A stretch of 64,000 nt of DNA from Undaria pinnatifida (Eukaryota > Sar > Phaeophyceae > Laminariales > Alariaceae): positions 2,963,710 to 3,027,709 of the forward strand of contig JABAKD010000014.1 in the NCBI GenBank assembly GCA_012845835.1, in the 5' to 3' direction. Both the position numbers and the translations under genes were made by a program. Under the pieces are notes generated by a model, which searched no databases, was not told the origin of the DNA, and worked only from the letters and a program-made list of their open reading frames with translations. This document shows, piece by piece, positions 5,938 to 62,700 of this stretch; positions within the stretch are counted from its first letter, which is position 1, and every line of letters starts with the position of its first letter.

Positions 5938-6005
5938 ATCCTCGAAAATTACGGGCATGCGCGGAGCCAAGGCGGGCGGCAGCCCGCCGGGGCGAAGCCC
6001 CCTTG
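5938..6005 (+). repeat. Short GC-rich hairpin repeat, copy 2
   Basis: ATCCTCGAAAATTACGGGCA, then GCGGAGCCAAGGCGGGC and GGCAGCCCGCC followed by GGGGCGAAGCCCC. This is the cleanest copy, with two adjacent hairpins. Confidence 0.6.
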
Positions 6006-6491
6006 GTATCTTTATTTAGTATTTTGGTAGACTACTCCTTTCTTGCTTCGCTCTTTTGCCGTCGCTTCCGTGCCGAGGTCTTACCGGCAGCCATTTCGCA
6101 AAAGTAAAACAAGCATGGAGACAGGCAACGCAGCTGATACTCATTCGATCGCTATACAAATACACTAAGGTAGTATGTACAACACTTTTGAAAATGGCTC
6201 GAGGTACCCACCAATCGACCAGAAAGGATACAATGAACGCAGTAGAATTACAGATTTCTGTTTCCCTCTAGAATGCTTGTAATGTTATCGAAAATGTAAG
6301 CAAACACGAAAAGCCACGTATTATGCCGCTCGCTTTTTGTATGAGATCAATTCTCCCTTGCTGCGGCGTTACCCCATTTCCAACTCCTAAATTATTTCTA
6401 TTCTAAATCCAAGTTTTTTGTCCCCATGTCGGGACTGCGGTGCTAAATGGGTTAAAAAACATCACTTTTTTTCGCTCTTGTGACGATGAAA

Positions 6492-6570
6492 GGCTTGGGA
6501 AGTTATGGTGCGTGACTTAAGGTAGACCCTGCGCTGCCCGCGTATAACGTGACGATTTCAAAGCAATATT
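6492..6570 (+). pseudogene. Echo of E1 exon 1, 5' half
   Basis: CTTGGGAAG..TGCGTGACTT, then ACCCTGCGCTG, TAACGTGACGATTTC and AAAG line up with 6892-6970 of exon 1. Several differences include a stop in the equivalent frame, and the acceptor CAG is lost. It lies ~397 bases upstream of the true exon start. Confidence 0.8.
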
Positions 6571-6589
6571 ACACCAGTTAGTACCTAGT

Positions 6590-6868
6590 CGGCGACTAAA
6601 GAGCCAGCGAGGCGACTTACAGCCAGTGAGGCGACTTGGAGCCAGCGAGGTGGCTTAGAGCCAGCGAGGCGACTTAGAGCCAGCGAGGTTACTTTAGAGC
6701 CAGCGAACTCACAGCCTTACTGCTCTGGTTTCGAGGTGCGTGAGACACCTCTACATTTTTTCTCGCTCCAAAACTTCTTGCAACACCTCACAGCCTTCCT
6801 GTTCTGGTTTCGAACTGCTTGAGACCCCTCTTTTTATTGTGTTTGCTCCCAAACTTCATGTGCCACCT
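6590..6868 (+). repeat. 20-bp minisatellite (x6) followed by a 79-bp tandem pair
   Basis: 6594-6706 repeats GAGCCAGCGAGGCGACTTA about six times. 6709-6787 and 6790-6868 are two copies of a unit beginning CTCACAGCCTT and containing CTGGTTTCGA, TGAGAC and CCTCT. The second copy carries the pyrimidine-rich acceptor region of exon 1. Confidence 0.75.
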
Positions 6869-6890
6869 TTTTTTCTCTTTTTTTCAACAG

Positions 6891-7079
6891 GTCTGGGAAG
6901 TCCTCGTGCGTGACTTCAAGGTGAACCCCGCGCTGTCAGAGGATTACGCGACGATCTCGAAGGAGGATCAGCTTAAGGGATACGAGATGATGCAGCTCTG
7001 CCGCCAGTTCGAGAACGCCTGCAACCAGGCGTACATGCAGGGGAAAATCGGGGGAGTCGTACACTTGGACAATGGACAG
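6891..7079 (+). CDS. E1 exon 1 of those seen: start of E1 alpha
   Basis: 63 codons, phase 0 at both ends, between a T-rich acceptor ending CAG and a CAG|GTTAG donor. It reads VWEVLVRDF... then LCRQFENACNQAYMQGKIGG and VVHLDNGQ, the first helices of E1 alpha where bacterial-type enzymes have RxFE, AYMQGKIGG and HLxxGQ. At least one earlier exon must supply the start codon and any targeting peptide; none was recognised upstream. Partial copies of this exon lie on both sides, at 6492-6570 and 7333-7418. Confidence 0.9.
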
Positions 7080-10000
7080 GTTAGTTGGTTGGTTGGTTGG
7101 AATGTTTCCCCGCCCGTTTCTTCTCTTCTTTTTCCCCCTGTTTTTTTATTCCTTTATTTTCGTTGTTGCTTTTGTTTTTTTGGTTTGGAAGGTTTGATTT
7201 GGTTTGGTTAGCTGGGCAGGTCGGTTGGATGTGTGATTAGGCAAGTTGGTTGGTTGATTGGATATTTGATTGTTTGGTTTGGTTTGGTCTGGTTGATTGG
7301 TTAATTCGTCAACTGATTAGGTTGACTGGTGACCCTGCCGCCAGTTCGACAACGCCTGCAAGTAGACTTTCAGATGCACGGGTATATCTGGGGATTCATG
7401 CACTTGGACAACGGACAGGTGGGTTGCTTGGATACAAAAGGTTTTGAGACTGATTTTACGATAGCCCCGCTCCAAAACCAGCGATTTTCTTCAACGAACG
7501 CTTCGTGGCTGCTCAACACGAGGAAGGATGTCATGAAAATATGTATCGTCACAAAAATTCTTGTTGGCAAAGGACTATCGAGCGATGGCGTCGTCGGGGT
7601 GGCAATGGGCACCGTATTTCAGGAGATACGGCCGGGAGCTGGTTTCAAAACCAGATAATTGCTAAAGAAAGGTTAGGGAGGCTACCGTAGAATGGCTGAT
7701 TGGGTTGGTTGGTGTTATGGTTGATTGAATGGTCGATTGGTTAGTTGGTTGGGCGGTTGGGTGATTAGTTGCTTGGATAATAGATTGGTTGGTTGATTGA
7801 TCGGTCGGTATACCCCCCTCAAGCGTTTTTTTGGTGTTTGGTTGAGTTATAAATACAATCTATGTTTTCTTTAGGTTACAGCACGTCTGTTATAATCAAA
7901 TTCCTGAATATGTTTCAGTAAGTTTTGGGAAGTTTTTTTCTATTTTTTTCTTTTTGCGAATCTTGGAGTTTTGCACTTTTTCGCGAGTTCCTCCGTCTAG
8001 ATTGCAAACATTGGATGAGCGGGTTCCACTTGTTTTTTCTTTCGTTTGCCTGTGTGGTATGTTGAGCCAAATGACGCTCTCTTGATCGCTGTGTGTACCG
8101 GGGACTCGCAGGAGGGCAGCCCCGCCATGGTTGCCGACAGCGTGGTGAAGGACGGGCGTAATCAATCACTTGGAGGGTTGTTGAGATCGTTATTTTCCAG
8201 CGATTTTCACGGGTCGGGTCGCTCCTCGCAAGGTCGGGTCAGGCAAGGGTGATCCAACTCGACCCGTGAGATTTGAAAACCTGCTGACCCGATCCGACCC
8301 GATCCGACCCGACCTGACCCGACCCGACCCGTGAGATTTCCAACCTGTCCTGACTCGACCCGACCCATTCCGCGAGATTTTGAAAACCTCCTGACCCGAC
8401 CCGCAGGACCGGCCATGACCCATGTAAAACTCCTGTTATTTTCCGTGTTTGGGGAGGACAGGTACTCTTGTATACTTCCGTCAATATATTTAAGGCGCCC
8501 TCGTTTTCTGAGTCGATCCCTATCCTCGATCATCACTTGTATGACTCTTCAGGAAGGCATCCCCGCCATCCCATTCCCTCCCTAACAACAACAAACCTCT
8601 GCATTATATCATAAACTTGTACGAAGTACAAGGAGGTTTCGCCATGGCGGGCTGACGCCCGCCTGCGGCTCCGTGCATGCCCGTGAAGACTGAGGGTGTA
8701 TTACATAGGCAAGTCCGGGCCGTGAATGCGACAGAGGACTGCGAAGAGTTGCGTTTAAAAGAAAACATGTATGAGCGATGAGAAAGGAAACATCGAGTAA
8801 CAAAAAAGCAAGGATTGCCATCTAACACTTCGTGTAGCATACAAAAGCAAAAACAAAAGCATAGCAATTGCCCACTCGGAAGCAACACGCCGGAGGAAAT
8901 CCGACCCTAACGCTTCGAAGAAACATCGCCAGCAATCGCTCTTGCCTGGTTCCTCTGCCGTTTTGTAACTTGGGCCTACATGAAAGTGGTACTCGTTCGT
9001 GCAGCATCAGCAATAGCCGTTCGTATGGCAGCAGTAGCAGCACTAACTGCTATCCGAGCCCTTGTCGTCGAATCGTGCTATACGCTCGTTCGTAATTCAT
9101 ATACTACCTACCTGGCGGCACGATGACGAACTTTCAATCCAGTATCAACATAAAAACCGCAAGCAGCACCAACTATTAAAAGCAGAAGCAGCAAATACAT
9201 GCGGCAGACAGCAGTATCATATACGTGTGCTCGCGACAATGCAAACATGACTTTTTGTTTTTTCGGCCCAAGGGGAAAATGTACCCGGTATTCTTTTTCG
9301 AAGTAAGCAAAAAAAAAAATCTAATAAACGAAAGTGGCCACGGTGAGAATCGAACCAAGGACTTAAGGATATCCAGGTTTCCAAACTAGATGTTGGCCCA
9401 CTTTGGAATGGTAACCGCTTTTGACTCAGGGCACCGCCCAGGCGCGGTCGAGGCGCCCTCGGCGCCGTAGGGGTTGCGGGGAGCACAATGAGGGAATTTC
9501 GGACCGAGCGGTGGTCCTCATCGCGCGCTATGTCGAGGCACGCAAGAACGCCGAAAAAACGAAAGCGTTTAAGAAAACCTGAGGAGCGTTCGGGGAAGGC
9601 ACACCACCAACAGTATCGTCCCTGTGTATCCATAAACGCCCGCGCTGCTGTGTGGGTGTGTTTTGCTTTTTCCGCCCATCGACATCGTATAAGCTATCTT
9701 TCGTGCCTTCTCAGGAGGGCATCCCAGCCATGGTGGCAGACAGCATCGTGAACGGCGATAAGAAGATGAGCTACTACCGCGAGCACACACACGCGCTCGC
9801 TAGCGGCGTCGACCCCGGGCGCGTCATGGCCGAGATCTTCGGGAAGGACGGCGGGACGTGCAGAGGCGCCGGCGGGTCCATGCACATCTACGACAAGGAC
9901 ACGCACTTCCAGGTTTGGCGGAGGTGGGAGGAGAGGGGGGGGGTTGGGTGGATTACTTATTTTGTCATGCACTGCCGTAATCGTTAGACCAAAGGGGGGG

Positions 10001-13000
10001 TGGGGGGGGGGAGGGGCAGGGCAAAATTGGGGGGGGCGGTCTCTTAGTGGAGAACAGGCTTAGGTTTTTCTTTTTTTTTTCAACTCTTCCGGCGGACGGG
10101 TGAAAAATAAGTGGGGGGGTGTTCTCTTAGTGGAGATCAGGCTTAGGTGGTCTGTTTTTTCTTCACTCTTCCGGCGGGCGTGTAAAAAACAAGCTTGACC
10201 CCGTTAGACCCGCACCCACGATTTTGGGTTTTGGAACTTGAGGGGGATACATTTTGCGGTATTAGATGGGTTAAGTTCACTGTAAAACCCACATCTGTGT
10301 CTCGTGTACATTTTAGACTCGGTTGTGGAGCGCAACAGCGCTGCCGTGAGAAAGGCAGCGCGAGCTGCGGTGACGTGTTATATACGGCTCACGTATTTGG
10401 CGGAAGGGGTGGGACGGGAGCGGGGGGGCGGGAGGGGGGGGCGGGTCAAAGTTGATATCGGAATCGCTCTTCAGGATGAGAGCACAGCGAAAGAGCTGAT
10501 TTGCTGCTTGGTTTTTGTCTCGCGTAATTTTGGACGGTGTGGGTACCCCCCCCCAACCTCGAGTGTTGGAGGTGTCTCTGTTAGGAGCAAGAGCGTTGCT
10601 CCGTCTCGAAAGGGATGCCAGGTTAATGGTCAAGTGACTAAGGCAAGCAACAAATGAGTACCTGTCCCCCCCTCCTACCCCGGCCGCGGCTCTGAAGATC
10701 GACGATATATGTTCCACCTTATATCACCCCGTCCCCGCGTGCGCCATGCCATACCGCGTCGCTCTTTTTGTGTTTCGCGTGGTTGCTGTGTTGTCGTTGT
10801 TGCTGCTGCTGCTGCTGCTGCTGAGGACAGGGGGGGTGGGCGCTTGTGGCGGAACAAATTGCTTATGCGGCGGGCGCGGCGCGGTCTATCCTGATGGACA
10901 GGCACCTCGACCCCGAGGGCATGAAGGATGACGACAGGTACTTCCACTTCTGCTTCCAAAGCTTGACCCGCTCTTGCAACTGCTGTAGAAATAATGTGAA
11001 TTAAATACCGTTATTATTGAATAGTACCTACTTTTCGGGGCTGAAGTGTTTTTGCTTGAATGTGTTACTGTTGGGCCTGTTTCACTTCGTGTGCGTTAAC
11101 CTGTCAATAGTTCCACAAATACGCTATTTTTTTATCGTTCGGAACTATACCAGGTAAGACCGATGACAATAAGCCGATAGTTTGGCCAAAAAGTTTCCCA
11201 AGTTTTTTTTTGGGGGGTTACTTGCTGAAAGATTCCGGGGTGTGACATACATTTTCTTGTGCACAGTTATTGGTCGAATTAAATATTATCAGCACGTCAT
11301 TGGTTTAAAAAAATCGTGGAGAGGGGGTGTATTTTGCGTGCCCCTGTCGGGGAAAATATGAAGCAATTCTGGAACTCCCGTTTCGGCAGAATGTCGTCCC
11401 GTTTCTGGTCGAGCGGTCGAGGGGGGTGGAAAGAGTTGGCGACCCGCTGATGCTGTCCATATGTGCTCGCACTATCCTGTTGGGCTCGGAGAGGCCGACT
11501 CTCAAAGCCTACCCATGTCAATTTTCTTAGCACAATGCCGAGAAATCGCTCATACTGCGAACGCAATGTACGGATGGGTGAGTGCACGGTGGTCCACCTG
11601 GGTGGGTGCATGTCGGTGAGCTCGCGAGGTACAGATTTCGTCTGATGCCGAAACTAGGCCGAGGCCAACGAAATGTGCTAGGCTATCGAGGTATGACAAA
11701 AACTGCCGCGATGCTGCTGCTGTCGCCGGAGAACGCGTTTTGAGGGTCAATCGAACAAGGGGTACCCCGGGTTGTGATTTTTGTGCTTCACTTGAATGGG
11801 CTTCAGAAACAGTAGGCTTCACAAAAATCATTTCAGTTTGAGAGACTCCACGCTGAATGAAGCCTGGAGAATATCGCCTCGACAAAAAGCATCCATCTTA
11901 GCACGGGATAAGTAGTAATCCCCCCCCTCCCCCTGTGCTTACCATGATGGTTATGTTGTAAAGGCTTTAGTAACGCAAGCGAATACATATCATTCATGTT
12001 CCTTGTCTCCAGGCCCAATTTTAAGCTCGACTGTTTTTAACTCAATGCAACAGGTACATGTAAAAGAAAGGTGGTGTGCACGATTTAAGGAGCCCGATTT
12101 AAGAGACATCGCTGTGCGTGCTGTCCATCTGTGCTCATACTATCCTGTTGAGCTTGGAGAGGCCGACCCTCGAAGCCTACCCATGTCAATTTTTGTTCGC
12201 GCAATGTCGAGAAATCGTTGATACTGCGGACGCAATGGACGGATCAGTGGTGCATATGGTGCAGCACCTGGGTGCGGGCATGTGGGTGAGATTCTGACAC
12301 AGATTCCGTCTCACACCCTCCGCCTGTGATGCCGAAACTCGGCCAAGGCTGACGACATGTGCTAGGCTGTCGAGGCATGCAAAAATTGTCGCGAAACAGT
12401 TGCTGTCGCCGGAGAACGGGTTTTGAGGGTCAATCGAGGGGTATCCCTATTAATGATTGTGATTTTTGCGCCTCACTCAAGTGTGCTTCATAAAAAATGG
12501 GCTTCATGAAAATGTTGTCCGTTTGTGAGACTCCAGGCTGAAGCCTGGAGAAAAATTGGATTTGAAAAAACGGGTACGCGCTCAAGAGGCGGAGAGGAGT
12601 AGTAGGAAACTTATTCATGAAAGGAGACAAGGCTGACCCGGGGAACTACCGAAGGTTAACGCTATTAAGCACGGGCAAAACATTCTGCAAGATTTGAGCG
12701 ATAGAACGGGAATAATGTTGGAGAAGGAAGGGCGAAACACTAAGCGAAGGGCAAGCAGGGTTTAGGCCAAATCGTAGCTGCGTAGACCATGTGTGCACAT
12801 TAGGTAGGAAAGACGCCGAGCTCACGACGTACTGCTTCTTCCTATTAATAGATGTATAAAAAGGCCTGACACAGTATGGAGGAATGGGTTATGGAAAAAT
12901 ATGTGGGGAATTGGGATCAGAAGAAAGATGTGGAGAATGATGAAAAAGAGTATGGAATGTGCGACATGTGCTGTGATGCTGGACGGAGAAATATCAAAAT

Positions 13001-16000
13001 ATGTTGGTTTTGTACAAGGAGTTGCACAGGGATTGTACACTATCACCCAATTTTTTTGAGGTACAGATTAATGGCATGATTGTAGCAGTCAAAGCAGCAA
13101 AGCAAGGAGTCACGATGGGGGAAGATACGGTGTCGGGGTTGATGCTTGCGGATGATTTCGTGGGGATATCAGAAACACCCCAAGCATTGCAGGAATAGAT
13201 AGAGGAAGCACTAGAGTACACTAGGAAATGGAGAGTGACAGCGAACGTGAAAAAATGCGCAGTAGTTGTATGTAACGAAGATAAGGTGAATCCTGTAATT
13301 TTTAATGGGAGTGGGAAGAAGATGAACTACCGATCGTAGACCAGTATACGTACCTTGGCGTAGAGATCTCAAAGGACTGCTCTTGGGATGCACACATAGC
13401 GAAGGTAATAGGAAAGGGTAAATCACAAGTAGGTAAGATGGATGCGATCCTAACAGACTCGCACCTTGACACTAGGATGTATTGTGAATAATTTGGTTGA
13501 ACCAAAGTTAGAGTATGCAGAAAAGCATGGGAAGGGAACGCGAAGCTCGTAAAACAACCGGAAACAGTGCAGATGACAGCGGCTAAAATTATACTAGGAT
13601 GCTCAAGTGCTACGAGTAATACAGTATAAAGAGCAGAACTAGGAGTGTATCCACTTAATACAAATAAAGACGCGAGAACGTTGAATGGCAATATAAAGTG
13701 AAGAATACGCCAGAAAAGAGGTTGCCAGCCATAGCTGATAGGGCTGTATGGGAGAAAATAACAAAGGAGCGAGCTAGAATAAGATGGGATATATGGAAGG
13801 ATTTCGGGAGAGACCAAGAAGAGGTACCATGGTACTGTCTATGGAGAAGTTTGAAAAATAAGGTGAAAGAGGAGAAGCACTTAGAGATATACGGGGGGTT
13901 GATGGAAGATATTGGAATTAAAACGTTTCTGCACGGCCCAATGGACTACGCGAACAAACTGAAACTGCGATTTCGTGTAGGGGACCTGGACCTACCAGAA
14001 AGAAGAAAGAGATATACCAGTAGTCGGGAGGAGGAGGACGTGGCTACACATACGTGCCCGTTTCGCACAACAATAGAGAGTAGGACTGACATAGTAGGAG
14101 GATGTGAAATATACAAGGAGGACCGGGATGCGTTGGAGAAGGAGATGAGAAAATTAAACGTATATGACATGGAAGAGTTTGGTAGACTAGAGGGTAGCGA
14201 AAAAACGGTCGCTATACTAGGAGCTAGATGGTGGCCACAGACGGCGAAACAGGAAGGGGATAGGATAAGCAAACAGTTTTTTATGTATTATGGAAGAAGC
14301 GTAATGAGCGCCCAAATCTTGGAGGTGTCTCTATTAGGAGTAGGAACGGTTCTCCGTCTCGAAAGAGATGCGTGGTCAATGATCAAATGACTAAGGCAAG
14401 CAACAAATGAGCATCGCCCCCCCCCCTCCCCCTGTTGACTGTTTTAACTGCGTGCATTTGTGTCGCCTAAAGTGGTGAGTATTATCTTGACTAAATATTT
14501 TCTTGCCGTGGTCTTGACGCAGTCTCCCCCCCCCCCCCCTCCATTACCTCCATCGAAGATGTCATCCATGTGCAAGAAAGTACGCACAACGTGCCAAAGT
14601 TAGCCTCACAAGCGGTTCTTAGCAGGGCCGGGCTCGCCCTCCTTGCGATTCGCCGGACACCGCACGATGCTTCGCGTGTGGTACACGCGACGTCTACCTG
14701 GCCCGCAATAACCCGACGCGCTCCGTCCCGGCGTTGTAGGGATGCAAGGGTCTATGGTCATGCGACAGAGCATACTTCAAGTATGTACACCCGTCCCCCC
14801 ATCTACGTAAGGGTTACGACCATGTTCCTGAGCTTATTCAATCTCCGCAACACGGCCACCCGGTATCCGTAATAAATCGTCCGTTACACATAACCCTGTA
14901 CCTGTTTATCGCATCCGTTAACCCCCCCCCCCCACCCCTTCTCTCCACCTCCCCGCCCCCTCTCACTCCCTTCACCCCCTCCCCCCACCCCACCCCCGTT
15001 CCCACCGCCCCCTCCCGTTGCCCTCCCCTCTTTTCCCCCCTCCCCCTCCTCCCTCCGTCTTGTTTTTCTACGTAAGAGTTGCGATCGTGTTCCTCGGCGA
15101 CGGAGCGGCGCAGAACGGGCGCATGGCGGAGACGCTCAACGCAGCTGCGAAGGAAAAACTCCCCTTGATTTTCCTCGTGATCGACAATGGCCGTGCCGTC
15201 AACACCTTCACCGCCGACGTCGCGGCTAACTCTGACGTCTTTCTCCAGGTATGCCTGGTACCTGGTAAACCGTACTTTGTTGAACTGTTTCGTTTTAACA
15301 AAGCTGTGATTTCGACGGATTTAAGGGTCGATAATCAACTTTGCAAAGCTGCGTGATGCTCCGGTCGCGCGTTTTTACGGGTGTTTTTTTTTTTTTTTTT
15401 TTTTTTTTTTATCCTCCGGCGGATGGGGAAAAATAAAGCTTTAGCTCACCACACTTCCGCGTATTTTCATACGCGTCGTGTGTCGATTTAACTCAGTTGC
15501 TTTCGCAGCCCAACGCTAGCTGGCGCACCCTTCGAGTCCCATTGTAGGTATAGCGTGAGCTGTCCCTATCAGTGGTCTTCGTTACAACCCCGGGTTTTAC
15601 GGGTGTATTACTCTTTGGAGGTATAGTATTGGTAGTACAATAGTGCTGGTCTCCCAATAAGGCGACGTCCCTATATAAGGCGGTATCCCGATATATGGCG
15701 GTCAAAAGCGCTTGGCGCGACTACTCATAACCTGGAATGAATAATGCGGCTTCCCCCTATAAGGCGGTCGTATTGCTCTGGCACACTACCGCCTTACTCC
15801 CCCCCCCCCCCCTACTGCAATGCTCTTTTATGTGGCTGACCGTAAGTTACCGACTAGTATTTAATTGGTTATTAATAGTTGCGTGCGGCAATTAGCAGAG
15901 TTACCGACCCCATAATTTGGATACGGGAAGCCCTCCTACTGATATACGCGGCCAACTCCAACGTCTTCCTTCATGTGCCACATTTTTCATGCCGGTATTT

Positions 16001-19000: not shown

Positions 19001-22000
19001 ACAACCAAAATACCACGTATGTATGTAGCATCATCTTTCGTGCGTACCCTAAATATCATGCCACTGGTATTAACCATACCCCTACAGCCCTCAACCGTCA
19101 CCAATGTATCTGTAAAAACTGGATGACGTATATATCTCGTTTCAGGTGTTTTTGGAAAAATACGGCACTACCGGAATCAAAAATTATGTGTGGGAGATGG
19201 CGAATTCCTTACCTCTTTGGTACGTGATCGGAAATGGTTGATTGAGAATGAACCAAAGTACCAAACTGTGTTATACGACGGAAAAATTGGGTACCACTGA
19301 AGTCAGCGCTATGATCGGCTACCACAATTAAGCGCTATGTTCGGCAAACATCAGGCACATCCTTCATCCCTCCAAAAACGCAGCATTTTGGTAGTTACCA
19401 CTTGATTAGCAGAGAACAAGCACAAGCAGTTTCCGGGGGGCGGGAGAAAGGGCAGAGGGAGTGGCTCAAGCATTTACCCTACAAGGCCCTCTGCCCTGGC
19501 TACCATTCCACGCCAAAGGCAAAGTGTTAACCGCGAAGAATAACTAGTCAATGCTATAATGCTACGCCAGAAAACATCTCTGCCGTAATTTAGCAGTATA
19601 TCGTCTCGATTCGTGCATCAACAACAATATTACCCTGCTGTATTTATGCTATTGAAAAAAGACAAAGCCCATGGAAAGAAAGGCAGTCTACATGAACTTT
19701 TTGTTACCTAGTCTGGTCCGAAAGGCGGGAAAGGTTCCAGGCTGGGTGTCCGTGCCTCCCACACCCAGCGTTCTCCATCGCAACCAGCCACCTTATGCCG
19801 ATCCCAGCCCTGGCCCACACGTCAACGGGCTCAGCAGCCGCCGCTCCCACGGAGCACGACCAATACGACTCATATTTTAGTTTCACAACCAAGCCGTCGA
19901 ACCGTCCGTCCTCCCCCGTCTCAAACTCCACCACCTCTTTGTTCGCATCAACCATCATGCCTTGTCCCTCCGTCTCAAACTGCTGCTGCTGCGGGTGCTG
20001 CTGCGGCTGCGGCTGCGGCTACTGCTTCGCAGTGCTCTCGCTCCCAGTCTCAAGTAGTAGGATTACGAGCTGTGACGTCCAAACAGGGGGTGGTGCCGCC
20101 GGAGGTTGCATTGCTGCTGCTGGTACGGTGGCAGCTGCAAAAGCTCCTCCTGCGCTTCCTCTCTTGTCTCCAATTCCACCATCTCTTTGACCGCATCAAC
20201 CACCGTCGTATTTTCCTGCGTCTCGAACTGCTGCTGCTGCGGCTGCGGCTGCTGCTGTGCAGCTCTCTCGCTCCCAGTCTCAAGTAGTGGGATTACAAGC
20301 TGTGACGCCCACCTGGCCACGCCCGCTCCCCTCTCTTGTATCTGAGTTGGCTGCGAAATATCTCGCATTTGCTCTGTCGTAAAGAGAAGCTGGAGAGCTC
20401 GAGGAGTGCATGCGAGTACTCGCATATGATGAATTTGCTTTCCTCAATCTGACCTTCAAAATTCGGTAGAACTCGTCCCACCCTGTCGAAATCTGGTCGA
20501 TGGTCCGGAAACCACAACATAAACCACCCTCTATTTATTTCTCGAGTTGGTCCCTTCTTGCGAGCAACTCTTCCGGCTCCCGCATCTTGGCCCATTGAGA
20601 GGTCCCCGCTCAACGCTGTCACGTCCACACTGCCCATTTTGACCTCGCCCTCAGGCACGGTTTTAGATCAGACACCCAGCTTGCTCCCTTTCTCAGGGAG
20701 GGCTCTTTTTGTGCAACACCTTTTGCTTCGAACACAGGAATAGTACCGAGTACGATAATTGTCGTGTTGTTAATCCCTACGAAGCGGAGAGGGCTTGCCC
20801 ATTATCGGCCGTGGGGTGGTTGCGTCAGCAGCAGGTAGATAAATGCATCATGAATATATTACATTATCACGGCTCCATGCCGAGGCGCTACGTAAAGAGA
20901 AAAAGAGCACTCGGTGGAAGACCAAGGTGAAGTTACGGCTAAACAGCCCGGGACATATTCCGTTATCCCCATATCCCGCTACCATGTAGCCAATCTATCA
21001 GTGGAAACCGCTACTATACTCAACCGTCATCATCTATGCCATATCATATCGAAGCATACAATCAACAGAGTGTTCGGCTTTAGTACTATTCCCGCGTTTC
21101 TTCGCCGTACAGGGGAAGCACTACGGCGTCCCCGGCATCAACGTAGACGGGCAGGACATGATGCAGATGCTCTCTGCGGGCCGCGCCGTTACGGATTACG
21201 TCAGGAGCAACGGCCCGGCTATCCTCCAGGTGCGTAGGAGGCGGCTTTGAGTGATGCAGGGCTCGTGATCGGGGCTTCATATGTTTCCCCTTGGCCTCCG
21301 TCACCACGTACCCCCCCCCGATCCCCCCGACCCCGACCACCAGAGTACCGTTTTTACTTCTCGTTTTTTTGTTTTGGCGCTAACCTAGATGGTGATGGAG
21401 TTAGATAATATTTTATCAAATTATTTTAACAACGTGAGCTGTGAGTTCGACTAATTAAGGTCGATACTCATCATATTTGCAAGCTGCGTAATACACCGGA
21501 CGTCCGTTTTCGGTAAGTTTTCATTAGTCAAAACTGAATTGTACGGAGTGGAGAACCTCTTTAACTCCGCATGATGAGGATATTATCACGTGGTGTGCAT
21601 TCGGTAAGGCACACACAAGGCAGTTACATACTACCCCCATTTCTGTATGGAAGTGGCCACACCAGAGAACCAACCGAATTCACTGGAAGCGGTCATCCAT
21701 ATGCAAGAAAGCACGCATAATGTACGAAAGTCCGCATCGCAAGTGGTTTTTAGTACGATGCAGCTCACACCTCACGGCGCTTCGCGCTTGGTGCACGCGA
21801 TGTCTGTCTGACCGGTGAAGAACCGACGTGCTTCGTCCCGGCATTGTAGGGATGAGACTGTCTACGGCTATGCATGAATTGACTACGCTCCCCCCCCCCA
21901 AACCCCGGCCACCCCCACCCGCCATCGCGGGGTCGGGCGCTACTATTTTTTGTTTGGCTCCCCCCACCCCTACCACCCATTCCTATCTTCTCACACACCC

Positions 22001-25000
22001 CTCCACACCACATTCCCCTCTCCCAACCACCGACCACCCCCCGCGACTTGCTTCAGCATTGACATATACGTGCGCCACTCTTGTTTTGTTTCATTTTTTT
22101 CCTAGGGTATTATTCCACTCCAGAGTGACTGGAGCCTGTCCTGTGACCACGGACTTGATTTTGCGAATTGATGTAAGAACAGCAACAGCAGCAACACCCC
22201 CCATACCTCTCCCCTCCCCTCGCCACCCCAATCCCCCCCTCCTTCCCTCCTCATCCCCACCCCCACCCCCCCAAAAACATCCTTGTACAGGTCCAGACGT
22301 ATCGTTTGCAGGGGCACTTTTCCGCCGACCTGGAGCACGAGAGAGGGCGCAAAGAGGAGAGACGTTGGGCTGAGGCGACGCAGGACCCCATCCTCATCTT
22401 CGAGGCGGAATCGCTAGACTCTGGCGCCTTCACTGAGGTATTAAGATGGCCGCGTTCTTGCCGACTATGTCCCGCTCTAATCCCGTTTTGTCCGCCCTCG
22501 TCCGATTGCCGACCTTCGTCCGAATGCCGTCCTCATTCAGAATATTCTCCGGCCTCATCTGATTATGCACGCCGTCGTCCGAATTTTTCCGCCCTCATCC
22601 TATTTTCTTCCGCTCTCGTCGTCCAATTTTTTCGGTCTTCGTCCGATTATATCTGTCCGTCGTCCGATGATGTCCTCTCTCATCCGATTATCCTCACCCT
22701 TGTCGCAAATTTTTACGCAACGCTCGTTTTTCCCACGGTATTCGTTTGTTGTTTGTTTGCACAGGAGGAGTTGGACGGCGCGAAAAAAAAAGCTGCTGCG
22801 GCGGTCAAGGCGGCCGTAGAGTATGCCGACGCATCCCCTCCCCCACCTACAGACCTCGCCAAGGCAAGATTTGCGTGTGGTGGTGGTTGGGTTGGATTTG
22901 GTTGGGTCGGGTTGGGATATGGTCGGTTGGGTTGAGTTTGGTCTGGCTTGGCTTGTTGGTAGAATTTGCCGACGCGTCCCCCCCCCAACCTGCCGACCTC
23001 GTCGAGGCAAGCTTTGAGTGTGGCGGTGCTGTTGTTTGTGTTGTTGTTGTTGTTGTTGTTGTTCTTGTTCTTGTTCTTGTTCTTGTTCTTGTTCTTGTTC
23101 TTGTTCTTGTTCTTGTTCTTGTTCTTGTTCTTGTTGTTATCGCTGTTGCTTGTTTTTGTTGACATTGTTATTGTTGTTGCTGTTTGTTGGTGTTGCTGCT
23201 GTTGTTGTTGTTGCTGCTGTTATTCTTGTTGTTATCGCTGCTGTTATTCTTGTTATCGCTGTTGTTTGCTTTTGTTGACATTGGTATTGCTGTTGCTGTT
23301 TGTTGGTGTTGTAGAGATTGATGCTGTTGTCTTTGTTTAAAAGTATAGCTAGTGCGGTGTAATTGTTGGGTTTGGCTTGATTTGGGTCAGGGTTGGCTCG
23401 GTGTGTTAAGGAGGCGGCGAAGTTTGCCGACGCGTCCCTTCCCCCGCCTAGCGACCCCGCCAAGGCAAATCTTAAGCCCTGTTAATAATGTGCAGCATTT
23501 TTTCCGGCACACTAATTCCGAGTTGTTTGCCCCGAAAAGGTGGTTGCAGGTCTAAAGGGGTTGAGCGTTGTTTAACTATAGTTAACACTCTTGTGATTGT
23601 TGGGTTCGGTTAGAGCTGAGGTTTGGTTGGTGGTGTGCGAGAGCACGTAGGTGGGTTGATGGGTGGTTTGGGGGGGGTCCACTTATGGCACAACAAGTGC
23701 AACTGCTTTCGCCTGGGTTGGGATTGGGCTGGGGTTGGGTTGGGTTGGGTTGGGTTGGGTTGGGTTGGGTTGGGTTGGGTTGGTGTGCGACAGCACAAGG
23801 GTGGGTGGTGGTGTTGATAGCGGCGGTGGCTTTCTTTTATTTCCCCCCTATTACCTGGCGTTTCCTGACCTCTAAGTCTCTCTAGCTGCTCTCTCCATCT
23901 CTGACTCTTCACGATTTTGTTTTTGCTCACTTTTGTCTTTTATCTCTCAGGAGCTTGAGTACCCCGACGTACCCTCCACCGACTACAACCTTAAGTCGCC
24001 ACCCGCCAACGCGGACGAAGTCAACGCCAGGTCTCTCCCGGCCCACTCCAAGAAGGAAGCCGAGGCTCACTGTGCTATGCTCGAGGTATTCTAGTACCTC
24101 TGTATTTTCTATGGTGATCGTTGGTGGTGGTGGTGGTGGTGGTGGTGGTGTTGGTGTGGTTGTGTTGGTATTGGTGTTTGTGATGGTGATGGTGATGGTG
24201 GTGGTGGTGTTGCCGAGGTCCACTGCGATACGCTCAAGCTATAATGCCGCTGTTGTGTGTGTGGTGATTGGTGATGGTGGTGGTGCTGAGGATGTTGTCG
24301 GTGGTAGTGGCGATGATGGTAGTGGTGGTGGTTGTGGTGGTTTGGTTGTTGTGGTGGTTGTGTTAATGGTGGTGTTGGGGGTGTTGTTGGCGTTGGTGGT
24401 GGTGATGGCGTTGGTAATGGTGGTGGTGGCTCGAGATGTCGCTGTTTTTTGTTGGGGATCTATGGTGGTGTTGGTAGTGGTCGTGTTCGCGATGATGATA
24501 ATTTTGAATGTGGTATCGGTGGTGTTTCGAATGCCAAGTTTCTGCCGGCGCACTCCGAGAAGGAAGCCGAGGCCTACTGCGCTATGCTCAAGGTGCAACC
24601 TAATCAGGACTTTTCACGGGTCAGGGAGGTTTCGAAATGCCGCGGGTCGGGTCATTGTGTTTTAAAATCTCACGGGTTGGGTCGGGTCGGGTCAAGAAGC
24701 TTTGAAATCTAGCGGGTCGGGTCGGGTCGGGTCAAGGGGTGCGGGTCGGGTCGGGTCGGCTCAGAAGGTTTTGAAATCTCGCGGATCGGGTCGGGTCGGG
24801 TCGGCTCAGGAGGTTTTGAAATCTCGCGGGTCGGGTCGGGTCGGGTCGGGTCAAGAGGTTTGAAAACCTCGCGGGTCGGGTCGGGTCACGATCCCCGAGA
24901 TACGAGTCACTCACGGGTCAGGCCACGATGACCCGCGGGTTTATTTTTTAGGCTGACCCCCTGTTCGAACCCGCGGATCTGGCCTGCGGATTCGCCTCGC

Positions 25001-32741: not shown

Positions 32742-32798
<57 letters not shown>

Positions 32799-44700: not shown

Positions 44701-47700
44701 ATGCATCCCATCCCATCCCATCCAATCCAATTTCATCTCATCCCATACCTATCCGTGCCATAGTATTATGTCCCTTCCCATTCCGCCCCGTCCCGCCATA
44801 TTTTTTCCCATCCCATCCCGTCTCGTCCAGTCCCATCCCACCTCATATCATCCCATCCCGTCCCATCCCATCCCATCCCATCTCACCCCATCCCGTGCCA
44901 TCCCATCCCATCCCATCCCCATCCCCTCCTGTCCCATCCCATCCCGTCCCGTCTCAATCCCAGGCGTTGGGCGAGGGCATGAACGGGTACCGCCCCATCG
45001 TGGAGCTGATGAACACGAACTTCGGCATCTACGGCATGGCCGAGCTGGGCAGCGCCGGTAACACGCACGCGACAACGGGAGGACAGTTCGACATGCCGAT
45101 GACCATCATCGGGGCTGGGGGCACGGCGCCCAACCAGTCTCTGGGGGCGGAGCACTCGCAGGTGAACGGTGTTTTATTTTTGTGTGCGTGCTTTGGTTTA
45201 TTAAGATAACTCCGGCCCCCCCGCGCGCGCTCGTCCGCAGACGCCATATTCCCCATCAACGAAGCACCTTCGCTTGCCATTCCAAGTTGACCGTCAGTTT
45301 GTCGCGCAATTCCTGTGACGGAAGAAGCGCGGGCGGCAGGAGCAATCGTTAAGGGCACGGTGGGTCCCTCAGCGAAGACTACCGGTTCTGTAGAGAACTG
45401 GCGTTTTGTTTCGACCGGTCTATTCGCGATTCTGCCCTGATTCCTTTGGTGAATTGGGTGTACGCAACAAATCGCAATATATATATATATTTTTAACAAC
45501 TAGAAGTGATGCAATCACGTACGAGTGCACAGCAGGACATTAACTTGTGGTTCGGTGTCTGTTGCGCGCACGAAAAAAATGCGACATATGCGCGAATATA
45601 TGCCTAAAAACCATTATCGAACTACGTTTAAACGCCTCCCGAAGCTCGAAAAGGCGTGTATCAGGATGCCTTGGGATGTCCCCCCCGGAGGGCCCCTGGA
45701 GGGGCCTCCGTAGTGCCTAGTGCTTAGTGCCTACCAGGCTGGGGCCTACTATTTGTTTTCGACTATGGCGAATAGGAAAATGGGCCTAAAAAATGTTCAA
45801 CTTCGACCGATTGGACAAAAAGCGCTAAAAAGGAAATTCGCATACGGCGATTTAGAAAAAAACACAGCCAAAACAAGAAATCGCCTGCAGCGACAAGAAG
45901 ACCCCTCCCAAAAAATCACCTGCGGCGAAAAAATGTTGCGCGCCCAAAATCGCGTGTTGCGCTGCGCGCAACCAGTCTCGCGGCGACTGTTGCGCAAAAT
46001 GTTTTTTTGACCCAAATATTGCGCGCGCGCAACAGTTAATTAATGCCCTGGTGCACAGCAGCAGTACACATACGTAGCAGCACAGCACACGAAAACGCAC
46101 ACTGCGCCGTCATCCCACCAGCCTTTGTGCCCCCTATAGTTCGCTGTCCTTATCATGGCCGACGGGAGGTCGCCAGCGTGGAAGCGTACGAAGGCCGACG
46201 ATGGTCTTTCGGCGTGTCGTTCGGGAGGTGCTGCCTCTCCTACAGCCGCACGTGTAGTAGAAAGCGAGTAGGAGAAATCTTCCCCGTGCGAGTGAGCTAC
46301 TCCCTTCCCAAGGTGGGACAGGGCGGACCCGTCACAGACGCCTACCTTCGGTCGCCAGCAGGCATTTATCGTGTCCCACGCGGAAATCCAGGTGCGTCTT
46401 CTTGGGCTCGTTGCACGTAGATACCACCGACGAGTGCTACGAACCATCGATCGTACATATACGTGCCTTGTTCTTATGTTCTTGTGTTCTTGTCCTTGGT
46501 GTTCTTGCTTGCTTGTGCTTGCTTGCTTGCTTGTGCTTGCGCTTGCTTGCCTGTTGCTTGGCTTGGCTTGTGGCTTGTGGCTTGGCTTGTGGCATGGCTT
46601 GTTGGCTGGCTTGTTGACTTGGCTCGGCTAGTAATTGACTTGGCTTGGACTTGGGCTGTCACCCTGTCCGTAAATATATATTTTAATATTAATATACAAT
46701 CGAAACGGTGCTTACATTTCGAGACAATGGTACCCGTGTACCAGTACAGAGGAAGAGAAGGACGTTCATTGATGTATATACGTTCCACGATTATTGGAAA
46801 TACAGGGGCCGTAGGGGTACTAATTTCAACACGAAAATGTCGAAAATGTCCTACGGTGATGATATTGTCAGATAGCCCGTGGTGTACTGTACATCAACTA
46901 CATCCGTACCTGTTGTCATCTGTATAACGTACCTGGTATCATAGTACATACGAAGTATATCCCCAACTCAAGATAGTTTTTCTACGTCACCCAGATACGG
47001 AGCCCGCGCGCTAAGTAGTGTACTGCTTGATGCTTACATTGCTCCAAATAAATAACATGTGACCGGCCAAGTCACCACTAGCAGTTATATACGAATACCA
47101 GGTATACTCCAACTGCTGTTGTAAATTGAACACCTCTGACAGCTGGCGCGTGCTACGATCGAGGTGCGCCCCTTTTTTTCTGAGGTTTCTCAATTTGAGG
47201 AGCTTAAGACCGCCCCCGAAAAAACTGACCTTTGATGAAAAAAAGAAACTGCTACTGGATACAAAAAAAAACATGGCTTAGGTACACGGCGATAATCATG
47301 CTAGAATAAATGGAGCGTATTTTCCGACGAATTTGGGTCAAGGAGCCCCGTAGTTCAGAAACCATTTCTTCAGACGAAAAAGTGCAACCTCTATCGTAGC
47401 ACTTGTCAGCTGTCGAAAACAGTAAAATTAAGTATTCTTCACAGAGCAGCCTTACCCGTTGCAGTGGTGGGCGTGTGCATGGTACTTGCTGGAAAATACA
47501 GGGGAACACACACACTTACTCGCGAACGTAAACCCACACATTGTAAACCACTAGACACGGGAAACGTCGAGCAGCTGAACAAATACAACACACTAGGTTA
47601 TGCCTCTCCCTTGCACGATAAAAAATATGGCATAGAAACCCCGTCGCGCGCACAGCCTCTCCCCCCCCCCCCCTCAACGCCAACACAAACGCGGACCAGT

Positions 47701-56700: not shown

Positions 56701-59700
56701 CTGCAAGTCTCTCGGCCTCGACACGGTCAAGTGCCGTGGACACCGAGCCAAAGCGAAATCATGTGCGCGTTGGGCCTAGCCGTCGCTTCGTCAAAGTGCA
56801 CCCCCCTCCCTGCAAGACGCTGGTCGGGGAGGGTGCTTCTTCTCTCGTGGGGGGCTTTAGCCACTCAGCCGTGCTCTTTGGTGAACAGCCAGACAGCGAT
56901 GAAGAACATACGCGCGAAAGCGCTACGAAGCCTTGCTGCAAAGGCGCAGGCTGTTGTTGGCGCGGGGGGTGTGGGGCATGCAGTCTAGAGTGGTGCTCGC
57001 GAAACGTGATTAGCCAAGTGTGGATGTGCAGCTGTCCTCTCGTCAAGGCTGTGTATGGGGCAGTATACACAGTTCCTGCGGGCAGGTTGTTGTTTGATTC
57101 TGCTTGCGTCCCGTCCTGGATTTATTTTACTCTGTCAACAGCAGCAGTTATGCATGGTATGCAGAGATACGCCTGATTTGTAAACCACCTTTGGTTTTCG
57201 TTTCTCCTTGCATGATGTGTTAGCATTAGCGGTATCGCGAATATCGAATCAATCTGTTTTCCTCGCCTGTTGTTGCTGTTTTGGCCCGTGTCTCGGCCTG
57301 TGAACGCCCCTTGGTTACCTCATGGGCAAGGCGGGCGTCAACGTCATGGTAGTAGTACTTACAGTACACATCATATGATGGGCCGCCGCCCGGGCCGGCC
57401 CGCAAAAACGCGTGGGCCGTCTCGTGGGCAAGGTGGACTTCGTCATCGCAGCAGCAACAGTACACCACATTTCATGGGCCGCGGCCCGGGCCGGCCTGTC
57501 AAAACTCGTGGGACGCCTCATGGGCTGCGCAGAGCGGTATAAAGCCCACATCCCACGGGCCGCTGCCCGGCCCGACCCATGAAACTCCGAGTCGATGGGC
57601 CGCGGCCCGACCCGGCCCATCAAATTTTCAGATGATGGGCCACGGCCCGGCCTCACCCATCAAATTTCCACATGATGGGCCGCGACCCGGCCCGGCCCAT
57701 CAAATTTTCAAAGCTCTCGGCCGGGCCAAGCCCAGCCCACCAAGTTTTCAAAACTCTCGGCCCGACCCAGCCCGGCCGGGCCCGGCCCATTAAACTTTCA
57801 ACTAAATCTCGGCCCGGCCCGGCCCGGCGCACACTTTCGGCCCATGGCATGCCCTGAAAAAAACGTATTACATTACTCCCATTCAAAGACGTGGCGTACC
57901 CACGGCGGTGGCAGCGCAAAATCACGATAAATATCATTATTTCCTTGCGTCAAGTCGCACCACCAAACATCACGGATTTAACGCCAAAAGACACCCGTCC
58001 TCATTGATGCAACACCTGCGCCGCTATTTGGCAAAAACACGCTTCTTTAAGTAACCCAGTCAAACAGGGGAACGGATGGAAACTCCGCAAGCGCACATCT
58101 GCCCACTCAGGTTGTACACCATCCGGAACCCTGCCGCCATCGTGAACACGTCCCCGCCGTCCCCGCCCCTCGACAAAAATGCGGGACGGGAGGTTATCTA
58201 TCCAAGCGATGCTCAGCCTCCCGTAACACAGGTCGGCGAAAAGAAGGGTAACGAATTGCGGTAGAACATGCACAAGGCCGCGGATGCTGTCAAACATTTT
58301 AAGCACGAAACCGTTCCGTCGTTATTCTCTGAAAAAGTTTTTTGCCTGTCCTTAGCCGGCAAACTTTACGCTTAGTGTCGGAATTTTTATCTCGTTGACA
58401 TGCCGAATGCCCCATCCCCGCCGTCATATTTCGTCTGGTATTGAACGAACTAGTTGGCGAAAATTGGCGAAAACACAATTTACGAAGGTTTTTTTTCAAC
58501 TACCCCTGCGACAACAAAGTTTCGCAGAAGGGATAACGTCAATCTGCCATGGACCACACTCCCCCCCTCCCCCCCCCCCCACTATTACATACTAACCAAG
58601 GCGAAGCTCTCCCCCCCAGAGCTATATATTTCGTCTCCGAGATACTTCGCGTATCTACCGAACCCTGAAAATACAGAGGTGTCGAAAGAAGGTCGTCGGC
58701 CGTTACTTTGGGGTTGACCAGAATGTACGAGGGAGAAGGCATGCTTACCATGATGGTTGTGCTGTGTAATTGGATATGGAAGAACGAGTACGCAGCTAAG
58801 AGGTGGAGAGAAACAGTAGTAGGAAACTTATTCAAGAAAGGTGATGAGGCTGACCCGGGGAACATTCCGAGGCATGACGCTAATAAGCACGGGCAAACAT
58901 TCTGTATGATTTTGAACGATAGAAATTGGAACGATGTTGAAGAAGGACAAAAAAATAAGCGAACGGCAAGCAGGATTTAGGCCAAACCGTAGTTGCGTAG
59001 ACCATGTGTAGACATTAGGTAAGATAATTCAAGGTAGGAAAGACGCCGGGCTAACGACGTACTGTTTCTTCCTAGATGTACAGAAGGCCTATGACACAGT
59101 ATGGAGGAATGGGTTGTGGAAAAATAGGTGGGAAATTGGGATCAGAGGAAAGATGCGGAGAATGATGAAAAAGAGGATGGAATGGGCGACAAGTGCTTGC
59201 TGTGATGCTGGACGGGGAAATATCAAAATATGTTGATTTTTATAAGGAGTTGCCCAATGATGTACACTGTCGCCCAATCTATTCAAGGTATATGTGAATG
59301 ACATGATAGTAGCAGTCGAAGCAGCAAAGCAAGGAGCCACGATGGGAGAAGATACGGTGTCGGGGTTGATGTTTGCGGATGATTTCTTTGGGACATCAGA
59401 AGCACCCGAAGGATTGCAGAATCAGATTGAGAAAGCACTAGAATACACTAGGAAATGGAGAATGACAGCGAACGTGAAAAAATGCGCAGTATTAGTTGTT
59501 GTGTGTAACGAAGATAAGGTGAACCCGGTAAATTTCAAATGGAATTGGGGAGAAGATGAACTACCGATCGTAGGCCACTATACGTACCTTGGCGTAGAGA
59601 TGTCAAAGAACTGCTCTTGGGATGCACACATAGCGAAAGTAATAGGAAAGGATAAATCAGAAGTACCAGGTAGGCAAGATGCATGCGATCCTCATAGACT

Positions 59701-62700
59701 CGCACCTTGACACTGGGATTGAAATATGTATTCTGATGAATGTGATAGTACGAAAGTTAGAGTATGTAGGAGAAGTATGGGAAGGGAACGCGAAGTTCGT
59801 ACAACAATTGGAAACAGCAGTGCAGATTACAGTTGCTAGAATGATACTAGGATGCTCAAGTACGACGAGTAATACAGTATTAAGAGCAGATATAGGAGTG
59901 TACCCACTTAAAACAAATAGAGGCGTGAGAAAGTTAAAATGGCTATCCTAGGAGATAGATGGTGGCCGCAGACGGCGAAACAGGAAGGGGATAGGATAAG
60001 CAAACAGTTTCTATGTAGTATATGGAAGAAGAGTAATGAGCGCCCAAATGTTGGAGTTGTCTCTAATAGGAGTAGGAACGGTGCTCCGTCTCGAAAGGGA
60101 TGCGTGGTCAATGGTCAGATGACTAAGGCAAGCCATAAATGAGTACGCCCCCCTTAACACCCCCCCCCCCAAACCTCCTTACCGTATATATGTAATAGTT
60201 GGCCTCGGTTGGCACCGACGCTGTAAAACGTCATATGTATATTGGGGTTGGCGTTGGTTGGCAGCGACGCTGTAAAACATGTCAGTCACTGCGTGAGCTA
60301 GACTACCAGGGTACCGTTTTTCTGTTTCTTTTTTTGGCGGTTACCATCATGGTTATCGAGTTATACCATATTGTGCGGGGTGGAGAACCCCAACTCCGCA
60401 CAAGGGGAATGATCGCATCACGTAATGTGAATATGGTAAGGCACCCACGAGGCAGTTACATAGTAATACCCATTGCTGTCTCTGGAGTGGCCACACCAGA
60501 AAACAAAGTATAACTCATTGGCGCTGTCATCCATAAGCAGGAAAGTATGCACAAGGTGCCGAAGTCCGTCTTACGAGCGGTTCTTGGAAGGATGCAATTC
60601 ACCCTTCATGCGACTCGCCGAACACCTCACCGTGCTTCGCGCCTGGTGCAAGCAATGTCTGCCTGGTTGGTGAAAACCCGACGTGCTCCGTCCCGGCATA
60701 ATAGGGATACGAGGGTCTATGGTCATAGGACTACGACCATGCACAAACTGAGTATGCCCCCCCCCCCCCCCCCCCCTCCCCCCCCCGAAGGGATTCGAGG
60801 GTCTATGGTATTTTAACACTACCGCTATGCATGAAATGAGTACACCCCCACCTCCCCACCCCATTTTGCCCACGCGCGCTTTTAAACGAAACCCGTATGC
60901 ACCAGCCTTTCCACGCTTACGTGATGAGCATCCCGGGGATCAAGATCTGCACCGCCGCTTCTCCTGAGGCTGCTTACGGCATCACAAAATCCATGATCCG
61001 AGACAACGGGCCGGGCATCCTGTTTTGCCCGGTGAAGATGATGAAGGGGGTTAAGAGCGAGGTGGACTTGGGGAAATGCCTACCGCTGAACAAGGCCGCG
61101 GTTCTCCACGCTGCCTCGGAGGAGGCGGTTTCGAAGGGCAAGGTAAGGGGGGGAAGGGAGGGTACTCATATCATGCATAGTCGTAGCTAAGACTAGGGGG
61201 GCGGGGGGGGGGGACGAGGGATGAGGGCGGTGGTGGGGCTGGGGGTTGTTCTCAGTTTGTGCATGGCCGTAGTCGTATGGTCATAGACCCTCGCATCCCT
61301 ACTATGCCGGGACGGAGCACGTGGGGTTTTCACCAACCAGGCAGACATTGCTTGCACCAAGCGCGAAGCGCCGTGAGGTGTTCGGCGAGTCGCATGAAGG
61401 GTGGACAGCATTCTTCCAAGAACCGCTCGTGAGACGGACTTCGGCGCCTTGTGCCTACTGTCTTGCTTATGGATGACAGCGCCAATGAGTTACTTTGTTT
61501 TCTGGCGTGGCCACTCCAGAGACAGCAATGCGTATTACTATGTAACTCCCTCGTGAGGGCCTTACCATATTCACACTACGTGGTGCGATAATTCCCGTTG
61601 AGCGGAGTAAGGGTTCTGTACACCGCACAATATGATCTAACTCGTTAACCATTGTGACCGTAAAAAAATATATAGGTACTAACTCACGCAGTGATTGGCA
61701 TGTTTTACAGTGCCGTTGCCAACCAACGCCAACCCACCCCAATAAACATATGATGATTTACAGCGCCGGTGCCAACCGAGGCCAACTATTACATGTATAT
61801 TGTAAGGGCTGAGGGGGGGGGGGGGGGGGTGCTCATTTAATGCATGGCCGTAATCTTAAGAGCATTAATGGGGGGGGCGATTGGGTTAACCTGCCGTTAA
61901 AGAAGGCCGCGGTTCTCCACGCTGCCTCGGAGGAGGCAGTTGCGAAGCGCAAGGCGAGGGGGGGGGGGGCGTACTCATGTGTTGATTGCCTTAGTTATTT
62001 GACCATTGACCACGCCTCCCTTTCGAAACGGAGCACCGTTCCTACTCCTAATAGAGACACCCCCAACATTTTGGGCGCTCATTGCTGCGCTTCTTCCATA
62101 TACTACATATAAACTGTTTGCTTATCTTATCCCCGTCCTGTTTCGCCAGTCTTCGGCCACCATCTAGGATAGCGATCGTTTCCTCGCTACTCTCTAGTCT
62201 ACCGGACTCGTCCATCTCACGTTCGTCTATTTTCCTCATCTCTAACGCATCCCGTTTCTGCTTGTAAATTTCACATTCCCCTACTATGTCAGTCCTACTC
62301 TCTATTATTGTGCCACACGGGCACATATGTGTAGCCACGTCCTCCTCCCGACTACTGTTATATCTCTTTTCTTCTTACTGGTAGGTCCAGATCCCCTTCA
62401 CGAAATCGTAGTTTAAGCTTTTTCGAGTAGGGCCGTGCAGATACGTTTTCATTCCAATATCTTCCCTCGACCCCCCGTATACCTCTTAAGGACTTCTCCT
62501 CGTTCACCTAATTTCTCAGCTCTAGCCTTTCCCTTTCTTCTATCATTTATTTTACTTCTGTCTTGTACGGGTCCCGCTAAACTTCTCTGTAGACAGTATC
62601 TCTTCTTAGTCTCCACCTAACTCCTTCCATATGTTCTCGAATATGTTATCCCATCGGGGGGGGGGGGGGGAAGGGGGAGGTTAACTGACGCGGTAAACGT

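Follow-up and report, generated by a model that had tools for sequence, protein, structure and literature searches.

Truncated copies of exon edges with fixed polarity in introns of a fused dehydrogenase E1-like gene and of chaperonin-family genes of Undaria pinnatifida

Introduction

Tandem duplication of exonic sequence is a described source of new gene structure. A tandem duplication over the boundary of intron 1 and exon 2 created a new intron in a potato gene (PMC4974935), and intron gains in Drosophila likewise derive new intron/exon structure from tandem duplication of exonic sequence, the polymorphic duplications cited there having a median of 367 nucleotides (nt), with 624 of 1901 holding some exonic sequence and not a whole gene, which makes such duplications a frequent kind of polymorphism in flies (PMC2891723). 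The models of intron gain by AGGT tandem genomic duplication or by double-strand-break repair likewise invoke local duplication or short direct repeats (PMC3443670), and duplicated or mutually exclusive exons likewise involve tandem duplication of an exon with flanking intron (PMC6071210). Here we describe a 64,000-nt stretch of the genome of the brown alga Undaria pinnatifida (the window; C20:2963710-3027709 within a genome of 511,146,479 bases in 68 contigs), in which a predicted fused dehydrogenase E1 alpha/beta-like gene carries partial copies of its own exons, termed echoes below, in its introns.

The potato duplication has the same geometry as an echo of the 5′ part of an exon; it led to a new intron in use, whereas the echoes described here look both inert and old and occur at several exons and in several genes (PMC4974935). 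The Drosophila cases are gains of an intron in coding sequence whose footprint is mostly lost, whereas here the footprint is kept and intron gain is not seen (PMC2891723). The intron-gain models build new introns in coding sequence, whereas echoes sit in existing introns (PMC3443670), and mutually exclusive exon copies are exons in use, whereas echoes are partial and decaying (PMC6071210). Our literature searches, which covered mainly openly accessible papers, found no account of a polarity among partial copies of exons in different genes. Both the process and its geometry are already known; what is less familiar is that several genes should carry a persistent collection of exon-edge copies that are old, seemingly inert and consistent in polarity.

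Results

Partial exon copies in the window

A Smith-Waterman comparison of the 12 exons with the remaining window (exons masked, both strands, score at least 42) yields nine partial exon copies, all in sense orientation and all within an adjacent intron; no antisense copy and no copy in a non-adjacent intron reaches this score in the window. All nine obey one polarity: four copies of exon 5′ parts lie upstream of their exon (scan extents 6496-6563, 8112-8154, 44387-44451 and 44628-44692) and five copies of 3′ parts lie downstream (7335-7418, 22959-23006, 23405-23464, 24530-24592 and 61856-61953). The blastn E-values range from 3e-7 to 2e-22 for the echoes listed by one comparison, and a second comparison gives 3e-5 for the exon 2 copy. 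The splice dinucleotide is unaltered in eight of the nine, the exon 7 copies retaining GC, and has changed from GT to GC in the exon 12 copy; the 3′ echo of exon 1 bears a frameshift and an in-frame stop. In the eight echoes aligned with their flanks, the copy continues past the splice site into intron for 6-41 nt in five cases, for 2 nt in the exon 8 echo, for 4 nt in the second exon 7 echo and for 47 nt, partly a common retroelement tail, in the exon 12 echo.

These results confirm the observation of truncated, polarity-obeying exon copies. An earlier note, made from the letters of the window, had listed 11 such copies at seven of 13 exons, placed in adjacent introns with fixed polarity and mostly with the splice site kept. 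Location, polarity and splice-site retention all hold. The scan found nine of the copies again, whereas those at 8553 and 14798 are matches of about 28 nt that are insecure singly, the second being made plausible by the paralog sequence; secure echoes concern six exons of 12 (exons 1, 2, 7, 8, 11 and 12), with weak support for exon 4, and exon 13 was not located, having been sought only by tblastn with PdhB and by eye. The exons and echoes, with identities or scan scores, are as follows.

6891..7079, + strand: exon 1 (tblastn to S. meliloti PdhA, AG/GT)
6465..6563, + strand: echo of exon 1 5′ part, upstream (72 nt of exon and 24 nt of intron; 74/101 identical, scan score 74)
7335..7431, + strand: downstream echo of the 3′ part of exon 1, donor included (78/97; in the paralog too)
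9715..9912, + strand: exon 2 (tblastn, AG/GT)
8106..8154, + strand: upstream echo of the 5′ part of exon 2, acceptor included (40/49; in the paralog, 41/43 between copies)
8542..8569, + strand: possible further echo of the 5′ end of exon 2, weak and unconfirmed (23/28, under the scan threshold)
10831..10937, + strand: exon 3, no echo found (reading frame, AG/GT)
15077..15248, + strand: exon 4 (tblastn, AG/GT)
14802..14829, + strand: weak echo of exon 4 5′ end, upstream (24/28, under the scan threshold; paralog sequence similar)
21113..21229, + strand: exon 5, no echo found (tblastn, AG/GT)
22291..22437, + strand: exon 6, no echo found (tblastn, AG/GT)
22765..22863, + strand: exon 7, GC donor (frame/splice-site model)
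22959..23043, + strand: downstream echo a of the 3′ part of exon 7 (with some 37-41 nt of intron; 71/90; in the paralog)
23405..23468, + strand: echo b of exon 7 3′ part, downstream (51/64; in the paralog)
23951..24085, + strand: exon 8 (frame/splice-site model)
24530..24594, + strand: downstream echo of the 3′ part of exon 8, donor included (55/65; in the paralog, spacer and outer flank also similar)
30376..30483, + strand: exon 9, no echo found (frame/splice-site model)
33936..34034, + strand: exon 10, no echo found (frame/splice-site model)
44964..45161, + strand: exon 11 (tblastn, AG/GT)
44362..44451, + strand: upstream echo a of the 5′ part of exon 11, acceptor included (77/92; in the paralog)
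44628..44692, + strand: echo b of exon 11 5′ part, upstream (score 94; in the paralog; spacer and outer flank alike, 111/163)
60906..61142, + strand: exon 12 (tblastn, AG/GT)
61856..61953, + strand: echo of exon 12 3′ part, downstream (score 107; the paralog echo has a shorter spacer without repeat body)

The gene, its paralog and the age of the echoes

The plus-strand exons are similar to bacterial pyruvate dehydrogenase (PDH) E1 alpha and beta (tblastn; S. meliloti PdhA among the queries, PdhB also used). When the 12 recognisable exons are joined, the reading frame stays open over 602 residues. Every acceptor is AG and every donor GT, with the GC donor of exon 7 as sole exception, and the product matches the Pfam families E1_dh (1.1e-55) and Transket_pyr (1e-13). 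As one frame spans both domains, the gene is predicted from its sequence to be a fused dehydrogenase E1 alpha/beta-like gene. Intron phase is 0 in 10 of the 11 introns, intron 3 being phase 2 in the exon model used.

A second copy of the same 12 exons, the paralog, is located 120 kb downstream at C20:3090374-3106351 (126665-142642 in window coordinates). Its frame is open, its exons are 94.5% identical to those of the window copy (1706/1805 positions), and it is compact, 16.0 kb vs 54.3 kb. The GC donor at exon 7 is common to both gene copies. The paralog holds eight of the nine window echoes (exon 1 3′, exon 2 5′, two of exon 7, exon 8, two of exon 11 and exon 12 3′); the exon 1 5′ echo was not found there, the aligned stretch stopping before its position. 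The paralog adds one exon 12 5′ echo (51 nt), upstream and of concordant polarity. Because they are present in both gene copies, the shared echoes are older than the gene duplication. Identity between the gene copies (gaps excluded) is 87.8% in the echoes (453/516) and 85.8% in the introns (5940/6920); the echoes are similar to introns in this divergence and therefore decay near the intron rate. Quartet distances place the echoes at about 1.9 times the age of the gene duplication, at which age a duplicated intron is expected to retain about 75% identity. Both gene copies keep the same 12 exons and an open frame while the echoes sit in introns.

The echoes might instead be functional, as decoy splice sites, pseudo-exons or RNA-structure elements under selection, a reading that would suit the splice dinucleotides kept in eight of nine window echoes and a between-copy identity slightly over that of intron. 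However, their divergence is near the intron rate and well under exon conservation, and the 3′ echo of exon 1 carries its frameshift and stop. With a between-copy divergence close to that of intron, selective constraint on the echoes is not seen, and we consider function very improbable. The results likewise give no sign that the splice sites of echoes, which the earlier note had viewed as a possible route to new ones, are in use.

Recurrence in chaperonin-family genes

The Cpn60/TCP1 family has 57 exon matches in the genome, and we examined 37 of them, in seven 10-kb stretches (seven genes). The exon matches alone were compared with their own stretch at a score of at least 40. The scan gave 13 sense matches, in four of the seven genes and at six of the 37 exons, and all 13 are concordant in polarity relative to exon edges that are the ends of hidden Markov model matches, not verified splice sites. 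Locus L030 has one 3′ part downstream; L033 has three 5′ parts upstream, from two exons, and one 3′ part downstream; L035 has four 3′ parts downstream and one weak 5′ part upstream; and L036 has three 3′ parts downstream. One L035 match (positions 102-157 of 180) ends before the exon edge, and these loci hold one antisense match (score 46). Simple-repeat matches were left out (L030 5763 and 5873, L032 8139, L034 5781), as were two matches that depend on flanking sequence, both concordant: L031 7874-7949 (score 60, upstream) and L033 9001-9044 (51, downstream). To gauge the chance level, unrelated exons were compared with 10-kb stretches of other genes; 444 such strand searches gave two matches with a score of at least 40 (52 and 42). 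We note that the 3′ end of one chaperonin exon recurs in L035 at 5740-6245 as a series of at least four consecutive decayed copies.

Overall, 22 of 22 scan matches are concordant (nine in the window and 13 in the chaperonin loci), together with the one additional paralog echo. Counted by exon edge, concordance is 14/14, two of the edges being weak (L035 6766, score 42; L036, scores 44-46), and a sign test of the 14 edges against random placement gives 2^-14, about 6e-5. Recurrence beyond one gene, which the earlier note had proposed to look for, is thus borne out by the chaperonin-family loci. The earlier note had named echoes of one exon found equally near unrelated genes as a refuting outcome; none was found for exon 12, the one exon compared with all 511 Mb, where four matches were obtained, the exon and its 3′ echo in each of the two gene copies, in a search that was not exhaustive in that the 51-nt 5′ echo of the paralog went unreported. 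Retroposed or complementary DNA (cDNA)-derived exon fragments, inserted into nearby introns, would be another source of such copies. We found no supporting point for this origin: the echoes carry some intron flank of their own exon, not the neighbouring exon, all 22 scan matches are local with fixed polarity, and exon 12 has no match outside the two gene copies. We give this origin almost no credence.

Exons compared with non-exon segments

As a control, random non-exon segments of the same loci were searched for a sense copy within 1.7 kb. Exons have a local copy at a rate of 12/49 (PDH 6/12, chaperonin 6/37) vs 45/242 for complex non-exon segments (24/126 in the window gene and 21/116 in the chaperonin loci; the paralog gives 30/107). 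For all segments, the rates are 38/150 in the window gene, 65/150 in the paralog and 41/154 in the chaperonin loci. Antisense local copies occur for 13/242 complex segments and 0/49 exons. A strong enrichment at exons, our first impression, fell against this control, although the PDH exons alone (6/12) exceed their own introns in local-copy rate. Similar pairs less than 2 kb apart in the window (E < 1e-3, tandem arrays included) are 69 direct vs 3 inverted. Because the non-exon rate is similar and direct pairs so outnumber inverted ones, the echoes seem to be the part of a generally frequent local duplication that happens to involve exons. The suggestion of frequent local duplication stands, without clear sign that exons are targeted, since non-exon segments are copied at a similar rate. 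Exon copies remain visible longer because exons are conserved. A young example of local duplication is seen in intron at 51354-52298, a near-perfect tandem duplication of about 471 bp that is 98.9% identical.

Exon copies and control copies were also compared by type. At a score of at least 54, all 12 exon copies are edge-concordant and none is a whole-exon copy with both splice sites, whereas the 233 control copies, from overlapping segments whose counts are not independent, comprise 76 concordant, 38 discordant, 96 internal and 23 full copies (counted with an edge tolerance of 8 nt, raised to 12 nt at chaperonin exons). This contrast is indicative of a selective filter, in which only events sparing one intact exon persist. 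Edge composition (C-rich before acceptors, G-rich after donors) is present on average but patchy; we set it aside as a cause of duplication, for which it gives no evidence.

Discussion

We think it likely that the echoes are what remains of tandem duplications that were local and had one of their breakpoints within an exon. A local direct duplication with one breakpoint within the exon and the other in the flanking intron would leave a complete exon and a truncated copy with a single splice site, either a 5′ part upstream or a 3′ part downstream. Having no second splice site, the copy would be removed with the intron by splicing and the gene would survive; the copy would then drift like intron while selection held the exon. 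A duplication confined to an exon would disrupt it and not persist, which would leave edge-type copies. The molecular cause may be slippage or break repair at low-complexity intron edges. The polarity, the locality, the near-neutral decay, the presence in both gene copies and the recurrence in other genes are matters of direct observation, and the earlier note's proposal of tandem duplication is sustained by polarity, locality and recurrence; a duplicated unit equal in length to the spacing is seen at only about five of 14 edges.

Those edges are exon 8 in the paralog, exon 11, two in L033 and one in L036, and they account for the significant similarity between spacer and outer flank (10/25 comparisons) together with exon 12, where the match is an element tail. 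The homology of the intron part amounts to 130/183 columns in L033 (about 130 nt of intron), 88/143 in L036, 111/163 at exon 11 (117/169 in the paralog) and 218/314, partly simple repeat, at exon 8 in the paralog. Where intron homology is gone, we infer the tandem step, and later insertion into the spacer would have to be assumed.

Several results weigh against tandem duplication at every edge. The outer flank has no significant spacer partner in 15/25 comparisons, among them those of exons 1, 2, 7 and 12 (the 5′ echo, and the 3′ echo in the paralog) and of L030. In a flank simulation that applies the age of the PDH gene to the chaperonin genes too, homology beyond the splice site falls under the 5% point of simulated homologous flanks in 23/26 comparisons, and in 12/26 it stays within the 95% point for flanks that are unrelated. 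Exon 2 is the worst case, with a spacer of 1,560 nt without match; a unit of 1,603 nt, equal to the spacing, would include exon 1, and there is no such copy of exon 1. Finally, the absence of full copies (0/12 vs 23/233) is not significant alone.

Staggered double-strand breaks over an exon edge, followed by fill-in of long overhangs and capture of filler DNA, would produce direct repeats of about 30-140 bp around unrelated filler. The polarity would be as in tandem duplication, but the spacer would be new DNA from the start, which suits the window, where most homologies stop 2-41 nt beyond the splice site and spacers measure 95-1,560 nt. However, exon 8 (in the paralog), exon 11, L033 and L036 have intron sequence common to the spacer and the outer flank, and many spacers are low-complexity, where positional homology is quickly lost. 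We regard break repair as an unlikely explanation of the echoes. The unmatched spacers reflect either later insertion or replacement, as the exon 12 spacer described below suggests, or, for some events, break repair with filler; both yield the same polarity.

The neighbourhood of exon 12 brings in a further possibility, that the echoes are long target-site duplications of a C-tailed retroelement inserted in or beside exons, with the element between exon and echo. A repeat copy (61223-61839, minus strand) does lie between exon 12 and its echo, element tails of type ATGAGTACNCCCC adjoin exon 12, its echo and the echo at 44362, and the exon 12 spacer of the paralog contains an 80-nt tail-like piece (142694-142773 in window coordinates). 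Against this, the paralog carries the echo of exon 12 too, although its spacer of 224 nt is without the repeat body, and the spacers of exons 1, 7, 8 and 11 contain simple repeats, not the element. Target-site duplication thus seems quite improbable as the origin of the echoes, and the 80-nt piece means that an element may have had an early role at the edge of exon 12. The exon 12 spacer, 715 nt with the repeat in the window copy vs 224 nt in the paralog, has changed by either insertion or deletion, a change that is unpolarised without an outgroup. Retroelement-like 3′ tails (ATGAGTAC followed by a C run) occur near exons 11 and 12 or their echoes at 44352-44365, 60139-60152, 60748-60761 and 60836-60849 and, on the minus strand, at 61156-61169, 61823-61836 and 61965-61978. 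The C tail is directed at the exon in all seven; one at 48056 is directed away from exon 11.

Taking tandem duplication with a breakpoint inside the exon as the source of the echoes, we offer a broader picture tentatively. In this lineage, small local duplications may occur often enough for roughly one in four conserved exons to show truncated edge copies. Such copies would be a lasting reservoir of half-exons, sorted by selection and with splice sites that look live, and this reservoir would lengthen introns and feed new splice forms. Compared with intron-intron comparison, the edge echoes would also record duplications over about twice the time span, because one partner, the exon, is held by selection. 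The origin of intron DNA is mostly invisible owing to intron decay; an exon is a preserved reference against which old local duplications become readable, and if the picture is true, the turnover of intron DNA could be measured genome by genome from exon-edge echoes. The geometric test (5′ parts upstream, 3′ parts downstream) tells tandem duplication from dispersed copying. Should the frequency in these two gene families (49 exons) hold genome-wide, it would provide a measure of local duplication and of its share in intron growth, and a way to seek splice sites born from exon-edge duplication.

The earlier note had seen in the echoes a possible route for intron growth, and this survives in part. 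In the compact copy, the spans from echo to exon cover 4,015 of 14,173 intron bases, an upper bound of the echo contribution. The introns of the window copy total 52,447 bases, but most of these belong to blocks without an alignable counterpart in the compact copy (at about 11.2-14.4, 16.1-21.1, 24.6-30.0, 30.6-32.5, 34.2-44.4 and 45.3-60.7 kb). Because the excess is in these blocks, several of which contain dispersed repeats, one with a reverse-transcriptase match, insertions rather than echoes most likely made the window introns huge. The simplest reading of the size contrast is that the introns of the window copy grew after the gene duplication. At 34253-34756 there is an RVT_1 match (Pfam, 2.8e-7) within a repeat that resembles sequence near 13.1, 59.3 and 62.1 kb.

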